A stretch of DNA of 32,669 nucleotides, from assembly GCA_003131625.1 (NCBI GenBank), contig PKVY01000042.1, positions 20,883-53,551 on the forward strand. The letters run 5' to 3'. This document shows positions 879 through 7,752 of this stretch, one piece after another. Source of the DNA: Acidobacterium sp. Its GTDB lineage: Bacteria; Acidobacteriota; Terriglobia; Terriglobales; Acidobacteriaceae. How positions within the stretch are numbered: the first letter of the stretch is position 1; each line of letters opens with the position of its first letter. Below the pieces are notes generated by a model, which ran no database searches, was not told where the DNA came from, and was given only the letters and a program-made list of their open reading frames with translations. The translations under genes were made by a program, and so were the position numbers.

Positions 879-2483
879 ATGGCTGCAGTCGAGGAAACGG
901 ACTTCGTTATTGTAGGCGCGGGGATCGCGGGGCTGCGTGCCGCGATTGGCCTGGCTGCGGATGGCGCGCGCGTGCTGGTGGTGACGAAGGAAGCGCTCGA
1001 CGAATCGAACACTTACTATGCGCAGGGCGGAATTGCCGTTGCGATGAGCGGCGAGGAAGACGTCGCGCTGCATCTGGACGATACGGTGAATGCGGGCGAC
1101 GGCCTGGTAAACCGCGAGGCGGCGCGGGTGCTGGTGGAGGAAGGGCCGCTGCGCGTCGAGGAGCTGCTGCGCTGGGGAACGGAGTTCGACCGCGAAGGCG
1201 GGAAGCTGATGCTGACGCGCGAGGGCGCGCACAGCCGCAATCGGATTCTCCACGCGCACGGCGACGCAACGGGGGCGGAAATTGGACGGTCGCTCCTGCG
1301 CCATGCTCGGGCCGTCGAGAAGATCACGCTGCTGGAATGGACGACGACCACGGACCTGTTGATTGAGGACGGAGCGATTGCCGGTGTTGGCCTGCTCGAT
1401 CGCGACGGCCAGGGGACGCGGGCGCGAGCGCGCGCTGTGCTGCTGGCGAGTGGCGGCGCGGGACAGGTCTACAGCGATACGACGAATCCGGCAGTTGCGA
1501 CCGGCGACGGCATTGCGATGGCGTGGCGCGCCGGGGCCGAGATTGCCGACATGGAGTTCTACCAGTTCCATCCCACGGCGCTGAGTCTGCCGGGCGTGCA
1601 GCGCTTTCTGCTGTCGGAAGCGTTGCGCGGCGAAGGAGCGTACCTGCGGAATGCACGCGGGGAGCGCTTCATGGAGCGCTATCACCCGCTGCTGGAGCTG
1701 GCGCCGCGCGATGTGGTGGCGCGAGCGATCACACGCGAGGGGATGGGGCCGGCAGGCGAGGCGCTGCCTGTCTATCTCGACATGCGGCACGTGACGAAAG
1801 TCGATCCAGCGACGCGGTTTCCGGGGATTTCGAAATTCCTGGCCGAGCATGGACTGGCGTTGCGGCGCGACCTGATCCCGGTGCGCCCGGCGGCGCATTA
1901 TCTGATGGGCGGAGTGCGGACCGACGTGCATGGACGGACGTCGCTTCCCAGGCTATACGCGGCGGGCGAGGTGGCCTGCACGGGCGTGCATGGGGCGAAC
2001 CGACTGGCGAGCAATTCGTTGCTGGAGGGCCTGGTGTTTGGGGCGCGCGCAGCGGAGGCGATGCGAGTAGAGGCAGGGTACAGGGTACAGGGTGCAGGGT
2101 ACAGGGATGCCGTGCGGGGAGACACGCGCGCAGCCGGAAGCGACGACTCGGCGCGTGTGCTGCGTGAATTGCAGCAGACGATGTGGGAGAAGGCTGGTTT
2201 GCTGCGCGATGCGGAAGGCCTGGGGGAAGCGGGCGAAGCGATCCGCGCTTTTGAAGGCGAGAATCTGATGGGGTTCGATCGGCCGCAGGTGGAATTGCGA
2301 AATTTGCAGACGGTTGCGGCGTTGATTGTCCGCTCGGCACTGGCACGGCACGAGAGCCGGGGCGCACACTACCGCAACGACTTTCCGAAACGCGACGATG
2401 CGCAGTTCGGGAAGCATTCTCTGGTTTCGAAGGGCAGAGACGTGACGTTCGTCGATTTTCAGAGGACGGAAGCGCTCGCCTGA
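879..2483 (+). CDS. nadB: L-aspartate oxidase
   Basis: FAD enzyme that oxidises L-aspartate to iminoaspartate, the first step of de novo NAD synthesis; NadA, encoded at 6.6 kb, uses the product. The 534-residue length is normal. Visible features are the dinucleotide-binding GAGIAG at residues 13-18, the YYAQGGIAVAM substrate loop, HSRNRILHA and DATG of the flavin pocket, LRGEGAYLRN with the catalytic arginine region, and the C-terminal GEVACTGVHGANRLASNSLLEG flavin signature (only partly quoted here as separate blocks GEVACTGVHGANR and LASNSLLEG). The ATG at 879 is preferred over the TTG just before it at 876. A TATAGC hexamer lies 10 bases upstream, suggesting a very short leader. Unusually, five tandem heptamers (2073-2107) insert a GYRVQGA-type linker between the FAD part and the helical C-terminal domain. 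The gene ends 1 bp from the convergent neighbour. Confidence 0.95.
   Translation: MAAVEETDFVIVGAGIAGLRAAIGLAADGARVLVVTKEALDESNTYYAQGGIAVAMSGEEDVALHLDDTVNAGDGLVNREAARVLVEEGPLRVEELLRWGTEFDREGGKLMLTREGAHSRNRILHAHGDATGAEIGRSLLRHARAVEKITLLEWTTTTDLLIEDGAIAGVGLLDRDGQGTRARARAVLLASGGAGQVYSDTTNPAVATGDGIAMAWRAGAEIADMEFYQFHPTALSLPGVQRFLLSEALRGEGAYLRNARGERFMERYHPLLELAPRDVVARAITREGMGPAGEALPVYLDMRHVTKVDPATRFPGISKFLAEHGLALRRDLIPVRPAAHYLMGGVRTDVHGRTSLPRLYAAGEVACTGVHGANRLASNSLLEGLVFGARAAEAMRVEAGYRVQGAGYRDAVRGDTRAAGSDDSARVLRELQQTMWEKAGLLRDAEGLGEAGEAIRAFEGENLMGFDRPQVELRNLQTVAALIVRSALARHESRGAHYRNDFPKRDDAQFGKHSLVSKGRDVTFVDFQRTEALA
2073..2107 (+). repeat. Five tandem heptamers inside nadB
   Basis: Five consecutive units of the form RCAGGGW occur: GCAGGGT, ACAGGGT, ACAGGGT, GCAGGGT, ACAGGGA. 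Since 7 is not a multiple of 3, three units encode one seven-residue period, and gain or loss of one unit would shift the nadB frame. A closely related heptamer array lies at 10555-10589. The unit count is read directly; its instability is inference. Confidence 0.9.
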
Positions 2484-3190: not shown

Positions 3191-4075
3191 TCAGGCGGGG
3201 CGGCCGGGAGCGGCGGCGGGAAGAATCCGGCTGAGAACGGCGAAGATCGCGAGGATGGAGACGATCACCACAAGGGACGTTCCGGCAGGGATTTCGATCC
3301 AGCGCACGGCCAGCATTTTGAAAGCGACAAAGCCGAGGATGCAGGCGAGCCCGTAATGCAGCAGGTGGAAGCGGTCGAGCATGGAAGCGAGGGCGAAGTA
3401 GAGCGCGCGGAGGCCGAGGACGGCGAAGATATTCGAGGTGAAGGCGATCCAGAAGTTGCGGGTGACGGCCAGGACCGCGGGGATGGAATCGAGCGCGAAG
3501 ATCAGGTCGGTGGCCTCGACCGCGATGATGACCAGCAGAAGGGAAGAGAGCGCGAGGCGCGTGCCTTTTGCGTAGCGGAGACAGCAATCGCGAATCCAGC
3601 GGATGGGCCCGCGAGCCGTGGTCGCGCCGGGTTTGGTGAAGAGCAGGCGGATGGCGGCGAAGGCCAGCAACAAGCCGAAGGCGTACTGAACCCAGGCGAA
3701 GTGCGCGAGCAACGTGGTTCCCGTGGCGATGAGGAGGCCGCGCAGCACGATGGCGCCGAGGACTCCCCACAGCAGCACGCGTCGCTGCTGCTCCGCGCCG
3801 AGGTGGAAAGCGCGAAACAGTAACAGAAAGACGAACAAATTATCGATGCTGAGCGAGCCTTCGATCAGGTAGCCGGTGAGGAATTCGAGCGCCGGCTGTT
3901 TGCCGCTGGTGCGCGCCAGGTAGAGCGAGAAGGCGCAGGCAAGCAGGGCGAGAAACGCGGTCCAAAGCCAGGCGACGCGGGGGGATACGTTGCGGCCGCG
4001 ACGCTGCAGGAGCGCGAGGTCCACGATGAGCAGAGCGGCGACGAGCGAGAAGAAGGCGAGCCAGTGGTGGGGCAT
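3191..4075 (-). CDS. TerC/Alx-family integral membrane protein
   Basis: A 294-residue polytopic protein with about seven to nine hydrophobic segments. It carries the TerC (PF03741) signature acidic membrane motifs: SLSIDNLFVF around residues 73-82 and EATDLIFALDSIPAVLAV in the second half, with aspartates in predicted membrane helices. Family members include the E. coli Alx manganese exporter and TerC of tellurium-resistance loci; Bacillus members help metalate exported proteins. Metal-ion export, probably manganese, is a family inference. The next upstream gene ends 9 bp before its ATG, so it is probably the last gene of a tatB-tatC-peptidase-terC unit. No yybP-ykoY-like leader fits in the 9 bp gap. 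Confidence 0.88.
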   Translation of the reverse strand: MPHHWLAFFSLVAALLIVDLALLQRRGRNVSPRVAWLWTAFLALLACAFSLYLARTSGKQPALEFLTGYLIEGSLSIDNLFVFLLLFRAFHLGAEQQRRVLLWGVLGAIVLRGLLIATGTTLLAHFAWVQYAFGLLLAFAAIRLLFTKPGATTARGPIRWIRDCCLRYAKGTRLALSSLLLVIIAVEATDLIFALDSIPAVLAVTRNFWIAFTSNIFAVLGLRALYFALASMLDRFHLLHYGLACILGFVAFKMLAVRWIEIPAGTSLVVIVSILAIFAVLSRILPAAAPGRPA

Positions 4076-6289: not shown

Positions 6290-6377
6290 GAATAGCTCAT
6301 GATACCCGCCGCGATTGACGGGTCACAAATGGGGCCCCACACGCCCGCTCGGTGAGCCTCCTGCCCCGCCAGGGGCA

Positions 6378-6406
6378 TTGATCCTTGTTGAAGCTGCGGT
6401 TAAACT
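6378..6406 (+). promoter_or_regulatory. Candidate nadA promoter
   Basis: TTGATC and TAAACT are separated by exactly 17 bp, a plausible sigma-70 pair. It lies upstream of the leader hairpin and the riboswitch, so transcription from here would include both. The hexamers are each only partial matches to consensus. Confidence 0.3.
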
Positions 6407-6424
6407 AATTGCATCGACAAGCCT

Positions 6425-6458
6425 TTGCGGGCTGCCGTTTTTGCGACGAAGCCCGCAA
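6425..6458 (+). other. Perfect 9-bp leader hairpin upstream of the NAD+ riboswitch
   Basis: TTGCGGGCT (6425-6433) and AGCCCGCAA (6450-6458) are exact reverse complements separated by a 16-base loop. It lies in the nadA leader, before the two aptamer-like domains, and is not part of the known nadA-motif consensus as I remember it. There is no T-run behind it, so it is not a standard terminator. Confidence 0.55.
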
Positions 6459-6479
6459 CCGGTGCGTCTAAGAAGTAGA

Positions 6480-6613
6480 GGCTGCAACATCCCCGTTGGC
6501 TGGGCGGGCTCCGATAGCCGCAGCGAGCTGACTGCATGCCGGGTTTGGCTTTCAACATCCCCGTCCAGATTGGTACGAGCCCATAAAGGCACGGGCCGAA
6601 ACGGACTGAAGGC
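6480..6613 (+). promoter_or_regulatory. NAD+-I (nadA motif) riboswitch, two tandem domains
   Basis: The same 12-mer, CAACATCCCCGT, occurs at 6485-6496 and 6553-6564, each within a similar fold. In domain 1, GTTGGC (6495-6500) pairs with GCTGAC (6527-6532, two G-U pairs), enclosing TGGGC, a small GGCT/AGCC hairpin and GCAGCGA (6520-6526). GGC at 6480 closes with GCC at 6538. In domain 2, GTCC (6563-6566) pairs with GGAC (6603-6606), and GCTTT (6548-6552) pairs with AAGGC (6609-6613). Both keep a TG dinucleotide between the inner and outer 3' arms. This matches the tandem nadA-motif RNA of Acidobacteriota, whose domain 1 binds the ADP part of NAD+. The last arm of domain 2 is part of the Shine-Dalgarno region (AAGGCGG) of nadA, so closing it should block translation when NAD+ is plentiful. 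The pairing is seen; the class assignment is from memory of the family. Confidence 0.85.
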
Positions 6614-6621
6614 GGCGTATC

Positions 6622-7752
6622 GTGAGTGTTCTGGAAGAAGTTGCTGTACCTGCATCTGCCGAGGTGTGTTCCCTCGACAGCTATCTTGTGCTGCCGGATA
6701 ACAGCATGGATGAGCGCATTGCTGTGGCGCGGCGCGCGCTGGGCAAGACGACGATCCTGCTGGGGCACCACTACCAGCGCGACGAAGTGATCCGCTTCGC
6801 CGACTTCACCGGCGACTCCTACAAATTGTCGAAAGTGGCCGCGGAGACGGACGCGAACTACATCCTCTTCTGCGGCGTGCATTTCATGGCGGAGAGCGCC
6901 GACATTCTGGCGCACGAAGGACAGCAGGTGATCCTGCCGGATCTGAATGCGGGCTGCTCCATGGCGGACATGGCGGAGATCGGCCAGGTGGAGGAGTGCT
7001 GGGAGACGCTGCTCAACGCGGGGATGAGCGAGAACGAAATTCTGCCAGTCACCTATATGAACTCCTCGGCGGCGATCAAGGCTTTTTGCGGAGAGCGGGG
7101 CGGACTGGTTTGTACTTCGTCGAATGCGCGCAAGGCGTTCGAGTGGGCGTTTGCGCGCGCGAAGAAGATTCTCTTTCTGCCCGATCAGCACCTGGGCCGC
7201 AACACCGGTCATGCGATGGGCATTCCGCTGACGGAAATGGTGGTCTACGACCCGTGGCAGATTGGCGGCGGCATTACGCCGGAGCGGCTGCGCGCGACGA
7301 AGGTCGTTTTGTGGAAGGGACACTGCTCGGTACACCAGCGGTTCCTGCCCGAGCATGTCGACAAGGTCCGGGCAAAGTATCCGGGGATTCAGGTGATCGT
7401 GCACCCGGAATGCCGAATTGAGGTTTGCGAAAAGGCCGATGCGATGGGCTCGACGGAAGGGCTGATCCGGATTGTGAGGGAAGCGCCGCAAGGTTCGAGC
7501 TTCGCGATCGGCACGGAGATTCATCTGGTGAACCGGCTGGCGAAGGAGTTTGCGCCACAGGGCAAGAAGATCGTCACGCTCGACGATACCGGTTGCCTGT
7601 GCACGACGATGTACCGCATCAGCCCGCAGCATCTGGCGTGGGCGCTGGAGAACCTTGTGGAAGGGCGCGTGGTGAATCGCATTCAGGTGCGCGACGATGT
7701 GAAATACTGGGCGCGCGTGGCGCTGGACCGCATGCTGGAGATCAGGACCTGA
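6622..7752 (+). CDS. nadA: Quinolinate synthase
   Basis: A [4Fe-4S] enzyme that condenses iminoaspartate from NadB with dihydroxyacetone phosphate to quinolinate in NAD synthesis. The 376-residue protein shows LLGHHYQRDEV, DFTGDSY, FCGVHFMAE with Cys84, the VCTSSNA block with Cys164, a VHPEC block and DDTGCLCTTMYR near the end; one cysteine from each of the first, second and last groups is expected to ligate the cluster. The start is the GTG at 6622, nine bases after AAGG, inside the sequence masked by the upstream riboswitch. The extended N-terminus (about 30 residues before the first domain) is like the long NadA type. The DUF2203 gene follows 28 bp downstream and is probably co-transcribed. 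nadC is not in the window. Confidence 0.96.
   Translation: MSVLEEVAVPASAEVCSLDSYLVLPDNSMDERIAVARRALGKTTILLGHHYQRDEVIRFADFTGDSYKLSKVAAETDANYILFCGVHFMAESADILAHEGQQVILPDLNAGCSMADMAEIGQVEECWETLLNAGMSENEILPVTYMNSSAAIKAFCGERGGLVCTSSNARKAFEWAFARAKKILFLPDQHLGRNTGHAMGIPLTEMVVYDPWQIGGGITPERLRATKVVLWKGHCSVHQRFLPEHVDKVRAKYPGIQVIVHPECRIEVCEKADAMGSTEGLIRIVREAPQGSSFAIGTEIHLVNRLAKEFAPQGKKIVTLDDTGCLCTTMYRISPQHLAWALENLVEGRVVNRIQVRDDVKYWARVALDRMLEIRT

Follow-up and report, generated by a model that had tools for sequence, protein, structure and literature searches.

The leader of the nadA gene in the 32,669-base stretch of DNA analysed here (the window), from an uncultured Acidobacterium sp., carries a tandem NAD+-I riboswitch. 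It is an ordinary two-domain member of the known NAD+-I (nadA) class, in which ligand binding to domain 1 probably favours closure of the last stem, P1', over the Shine-Dalgarno sequence and so lowers the translation of nadA. The window shows both domains, the nucleotides conserved in them, nadA itself, and a last stem that overlaps the ribosome site. It adds a further case to a class whose structures are already published, and the comparative set of leaders assembled around it is more useful: in that set domain 2 is near-absolutely constrained, and the function of its bulge is left unsettled in the accounts of PMC10702441, PMC7708056 and PMC7297122.

A tandem NAD+-I riboswitch before nadA had been proposed from the letters of the DNA, together with a covariance-model search by which it could be checked, and the proposal survives that search. 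Scanning of the whole window with the Rfam covariance models returned two matches to RF03013 (nadA, NAD+-I riboswitch), one at 6481-6539 with 47.6 bits and the other at 6548-6613 with 41.2 bits, both full-length (model positions 1-62) and above the gathering score of 37.5 bits, with E-values of 2.9e-8 and 2.2e-6 over the whole window and of 5.3e-10 and 4e-8 over 601 bases. No other Rfam match in the window exceeds its gathering score, the draft host genome (148 contigs) contains these two RF03013 matches and none further at an E-value of 0.001, and none of 14 control genomes has a match. The repeated motif CAACATCCCCGT, reported as two copies 68 bp apart, was located at 6485-6496 and 6553-6564 with exactly that spacing; both copies sit inside the full-length matches, and there is no third copy on either strand of the window. 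The two tandem stem-loops carry the bulge ACANCCCC at 6487-6494 and 6555-6562, and a gene of NAD+ synthesis, nadA, follows downstream. The features of the locus are listed below; nucleotide numbering within the domains follows PMC7708056.

6467-6472, plus strand: candidate -10-like element TCTAAG of a putative promoter, 7 nt before domain 1
6480-6540, plus strand: domain 1, putative ADP/NAD+-binding domain (RF03013, 47.6 bits at 6481-6539)
6480-6486 and 6533-6540, plus strand: P1 of domain 1, with U6537 bulged (leader parse)
6487-6494, plus strand: J1 bulge of domain 1, ACAUCCCC (leader parse)
6495-6501 and 6526-6532, plus strand: P1a of domain 1, 7 bp (leader parse)
6502-6503 and 6522-6525, plus strand: J2 of domain 1, G23 G24 and A35 G36 C37 G38 (AGCG), respectively (leader parse)
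6504-6521, plus strand: P1b hairpin of domain 1 (leader parse)
6541-6547, plus strand: linker between the domains, 7 nt (sequence)
6548-6613, plus strand: domain 2, putative regulatory domain (RF03013, 41.2 bits at 6548-6613)
6548-6554 and 6607-6613, plus strand: P1' of domain 2 (leader parse)
6555-6562, plus strand: J1 bulge of domain 2, ACAUCCCC (leader parse)
6563-6566 and 6603-6606, plus strand: P1a' of domain 2 (leader parse)
6609-6615, plus strand: nadA Shine-Dalgarno sequence AAGGCGG (sequence; AAGGC lies within the 3' arm of P1')
6622-7752, plus strand: nadA, quinolinate synthase, 376 aa, GTG start (TIGR00550 and PF02445)

Domain 1 contains every nucleotide that PMC7708056 reports to abolish binding when changed. 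It has the ADP pocket and J2 nucleotides, with roles as given in that paper, namely the pairs C6-G47 and A7-U46, A8, A10, C13, C14, G23, G24, A35, G36, C37 and G38, next to a P1a of 7 bp. The sequence-only reading had called the core of this domain complete, and the GG...AGCG of J2 is indeed found in domain 1 and missing from domain 2. The outer stem that it drew for domain 1 exists, but its extent had to be corrected to 6480-6486 and 6533-6540, with a bulged U at 6537. The TG that it placed between the 3' arm of the inner stem and that of the outer one is no spacer, since U46-G47 pairs with A7 and C6 and belongs to the outer stem, which makes the two stems contiguous on the 3' side; C6-G47 is a ligand contact according to PMC7708056.

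Domain 2 has no J2, its apex being an irregular hairpin, and the ribosome site falls within its P1' 3' arm. An altered core with the outer and inner stems retained had been claimed for it; P1' and P1a' were both parsed, and an altered core of domain 2 is described in PMC7297122. The last stem, P1', is formed by GCUUUCA and UGAAGGC, and the proposed overlap of its AAGGC with the nadA Shine-Dalgarno sequence is there: AAGG (6609-6612) belongs to the 3' arm and is separated from the GTG at 6622 by 9 nt. GG at 6614-6615, also part of the Shine-Dalgarno sequence, falls outside P1', which counts against the model. The anti-Shine-Dalgarno sequence was assumed, as the usual 16S 3' end was sought in the draft host genome and not found. 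The product of nadA scores 325.9 bits with TIGR00550 (cut-off 262.9), 334.4 bits with PF02445 and 509.1 bits with NF006884, the latter below its own cut-off of 691.

For comparison, 150 leaders were collected from 149 genomes: the window's own, 25 from the search of the nearest genomes, a further 118, and 6 that were mostly low-scoring or single-match cases. From the family search the best places of the 190 matching genomes were taken and 41 matching genomes were left out, so that the set leans to high scorers. Parsing covered 148 leaders (147 genomes), the window's own included; L132 was left out as no 3' arm of domain 2 was found in it, that stretch containing Ns, and L120 as its contig ends after domain 1. 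Six others (L020, L061, L133, L136, L138 and L154) had one domain that scored under the script threshold, and were assigned by eye or after the threshold was relaxed. With a bulge defined by at most one mismatch across seven fixed positions, 149 of the 150 leaders (the 148 parsed ones, and L132 by motif only) have a pair of bulge motifs ahead of nadA, in a set that was itself gathered by means of RF03013; the 150th is L120, cut by the contig end. These counts agree with PMC10702441, according to which no single-domain members are known. In one assembly, G120, separate contigs each hold a nadA leader (L100 and L101), and the tandem riboswitches of the two differ slightly, reflecting either a duplicate gene or a mixed assembly.

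The J1 nucleotides A8, C9, A10, C12, C14 and C15 are invariant in both domains of the 148 parsed leaders, as are C6, A7 and G47 of domain 1; domain 2 likewise keeps C6, A7, U46 and G47 in all 148. Position N11 is free, and in domain 2 it is mostly U (139/148). C13 alone varies among the seven fixed bulge positions of domain 2, where it is C in 137 copies, U in 7 and A in 4, as against C in 146 of the 148 copies of domain 1; the difference (11 changes vs 2, Fisher p 0.02) comes from a post hoc comparison in which relatedness is ignored. J2 is complete in domain 1 of 145 leaders (the exceptions being L024, L025 and L159) and in domain 2 of one, L020, and bases at the J2 offsets of domain 2 are not conserved; the view that domain 2 of the window is degenerate was rejected, as J2 is missing from domain 2 of 147 of the 148 leaders. 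The 5' arm of P1' is GCUUUCA throughout, and its 3' arm is UGAAGGC in 122 leaders, UGAAAGC in 23, UGAGAGC in 2 and UGGAAGC in 1. Pairs 2, 3, 5, 6 and 7 of P1a and pairs 3, 4, 5 and 7 of P1 in domain 1 are formed more often than in any of 500 shuffles, in a test that places the arms by best pairing and does not remove relatedness. In L147, C13 of domain 1 is changed to U and J2 is kept. L024, from the same genus (G006), has a domain 1 without P1b and J2 and with C13 changed to U, which resembles a domain 2 and may be a natural case of a ligand site that is altered or no longer works.

The distance from the end of P1' to the start codon, taken as the first in-frame start after P1', is 8 nt in the window and 6-14 nt in 146 of the 148 leaders. 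The commonest linker length is 7 nt (45/148), counted from a 7-nt 3' arm, so that leaders with a bulged arm, the window's own included, count one longer. Upstream of domain 1, a consensus sigma-70 scan found no plus-strand promoter in 6290-6640, and such a promoter was rejected, leaving TCTAAG as a candidate only. TCTAA occurs 5-40 nt before domain 1 in 27/148 leaders vs 1/148 in a control stretch 50-85 nt before it, and TNTAA in 45/148 vs 13/148.

RF03013 matches were found in 26 of the 61 nearest genomes, in 190 of 300 genomes of the same family and in 38 of 396 genomes of a phylum sample, where the 36 above the cut-off all belong to that family. The other two, G569 and G429, lie outside the family, score 27.7 bits each against 37.5, and were rejected: they have no second bulge motif in range and no nadA match at the locus, and look like chance hits. 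Scanning of named genomes with the domain 2 pattern returned 95 stretches; among the matches listed (80 of the 95) all titles are of Acidobacteriota, including Acidobacteriaceae bacterium KBS 83, Terriglobus, Acidicapsa, Granulicella and Acidobacterium, and one listed match is titled Candidatus Solibacter, which by its title is of another order. This spread supports the earlier assignment of the DNA to an acidobacterial host. The class is not limited to one family, for Candidatus Koribacter versatilis, a riboswitch source named in PMC10702441, is classified in a second family of this order, Candidatus Korobacteraceae.

The presence of the riboswitch tracks the nadA gene. When the NadA of the window was used to search 20 genomes of the family that have no riboswitch, 15 yielded nothing and one (G021) a weak partial match only. 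Three more (G129, G066 and G098, loci L170, L171 and L172) encode a NadA 53-56% identical to that of the window and have no RF03013 match; their divergent nadA adjoins nadC in G066 and G129, and nadB and nadC in G098, and a different nadA in a nadC cluster without the riboswitch suggests that the gene was replaced in these genomes. In G007, of the same genus (L173, 1470-1590), the last 27 codons of nadA abut the first half of domain 2. PF02445 finds no match in this genome, and the nadB match above cut-off seen in G000, G003 and G004 is missing, while nadC is kept, from which it appears that quinolinate synthesis from aspartate was lost, leaving a scar in the riboswitch. In the window itself, nadB (L-aspartate oxidase) is encoded at 876-2483, about 4 kb before nadA, and has no Rfam match of its own; its TIGR00551 match (537.5 bits) lies at G000:C137:21776-23269, i.e. 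window 894-2387. A TerC/Alx family gene at 3191-4075 on the minus strand matches TIGR03718 'R_switched_Alx' with 283.7 bits; the family name suggests a yybP-ykoY-type element, though no such Rfam match above threshold was found in the window.

By analogy with published relatives, which supply the ligand identity, the OFF direction and the coupling of domain 1 to domain 2, domain 1 would bind the ADP half of NAD+ (or ADP/ATP) in a pocket formed by P1 and the ACAUCCCC bulge and held by the C13:G38 and C14:G36 pairs to J2. Ligand binding would favour the folded tandem, in which P1' pairs AAGGC of the Shine-Dalgarno sequence, so that translation of quinolinate synthase would fall when the cofactor is plentiful. 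The published model is the same: domain 1 binds the ADP moiety, P1' holds the ribosome site and cofactor means OFF (PMC10702441, PMC7708056, PMC7297122, PMC9481103). Translational OFF control of nadA is thus likely, and the idea that ligand closes the stem and blocks translation fits both the predicted anatomy and the proposal made in PMC10702441 and PMC7708056. In both papers domain 1 is the site at which ligand binding is easily measured. PMC10702441 reports that domain 2 alone gave no binding by calorimetry and that NAD+ is bound no better than ATP and ADP, so that the true signal is a matter of debate. For the ligand-free window, folding predicts P1' with a probability of 0.0004 and AAGG unpaired with 0.75, as an OFF switch needs, and the riboswitch fold lies 2.1, 6.0, 7.2 and 9.9 kcal/mol above the free ensemble with 0, 9, 20 and 40 downstream bases. 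Across the 148 leaders, AAGG is predicted to be unpaired with 0.21 on average, P1' exceeds 0.5 in 93 and is below 0.1 in 21, and the riboswitch fold is a median of 0.9 kcal/mol away from the free ensemble. The open ligand-free state predicted for the window is not general among the leaders, and since the competing fold is not conserved either, it lends the model little weight.

That competing fold pairs the 3' side of P1b (6512-6521) with the ribosome site and start (6612-6622), and might be taken for a lineage-specific switch acting in the ligand-free RNA. It appears in the predicted minimum-energy fold with at least 9 downstream bases, and the duplex reaches -23.0 kcal/mol in the window (1 of 25 mismatched controls as strong) and -24.4 kcal/mol in L006 (0 of 25). 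However, for the other 9 of the 11 genus members the duplex is equalled by 4 to 21 of the 25 mismatched controls, the mean z over the 148 leaders is -0.05, not beyond chance, and the pairing would also leave the start codon covered when the switch is ON; as a general switch it was rejected on that z value, and as a lineage-specific one we hold it very unlikely. A further reading, that the locus is a chance repeat or a set of unrelated hairpins, can practically be dismissed in view of the two full-length matches above threshold, the 0/14 control genomes, the gene context and the conservation.

The remaining readings concern domain 2 of the NAD+-I riboswitch, and bear on the published debate over one or two ligands per RNA (PMC10702441, PMC7708056). 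If it were only a hairpin sequestering the Shine-Dalgarno sequence, with a bulge left as a functionless relic of duplication, the missing J2 would be explained, as would the published in-line probing in which, as PMC7297122 and PMC7708056 recount, domain 2 showed no binding. A relic should drift, however, and across the 148 leaders just one of the seven fixed bulge positions varies, whereas the J2 offsets of this domain show no conservation; the bulge seems to be still under selection, and we consider the relic quite improbable. Alternatively, domain 2 would bind an NAD+ or ADP of its own at millimolar level, closing P1' and making the tandem a sensor of two concentrations. The nucleotides kept in all domain 2 copies, the crystal structure of domain 2 with NAD+ (PMC7708056) and the weak affinity of 3.4 mM quoted in PMC10702441 speak for such a sensor, whereas the single ligand per full-length RNA, with no domain 2 binding, reported in PMC10702441, and the absence from domain 2 of 147/148 leaders of the J2 signature that holds the high-affinity pocket of domain 1 speak against it, and it seems rather doubtful. 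It is possible, and we put it forward tentatively, that a single composite site exists to which the bulge of domain 2 contributes a functional half, its C12, C14 and C15 docking onto domain 1 or the nicotinamide side of NAD+. Domain 2 relaxes only C13, whose counterpart in domain 1 pairs with G38 of J2, and keeps C14 invariant although the J2 partner of C14 is missing too, a pattern which points to docking or ligand contact by the bulge. A composite site would explain why the class is always tandem. The comparative pattern argues against domain 2 as a mere hairpin and does not settle the debate; natural variants, such as the 11/148 leaders with C13 of domain 2 changed to U or A, L126, L143 and L158 among them, and domain 1 of L024, could help to decide it.

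Compared with the NAD+-I riboswitches of RF03013 as described in PMC7297122, PMC7708056 and PMC10702441, the element has the same two domains, J1 bulge ACANCCCC and 7-bp P1a, the same J2 (GYG) in domain 1 and none in domain 2, and the same ribosome site in P1', nadA downstream and acidobacterial host. The differences are of detail: P1 of domain 1 has a single bulged U, and the apical hairpin of domain 2 is long and irregular. Bulged P1 arms and long domain 2 hairpins are found in relatives too. The tandem glycine riboswitch has a fold different from that of NAD+-I. The two share the arrangement of two homologous aptamers of which the second is tied to the expression platform, a comparison drawn in PMC10702441, but the glycine riboswitch has another ligand, and that paper saw no second ligand on the full-length NAD+-I RNA. 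The NAD+-II (pnuC) riboswitch, for which the window has no Rfam match above threshold, likewise senses NAD+ derivatives, but it does so from the nicotinamide riboside side (PMC10702441) and is linked to pnuC (PMC7749635).
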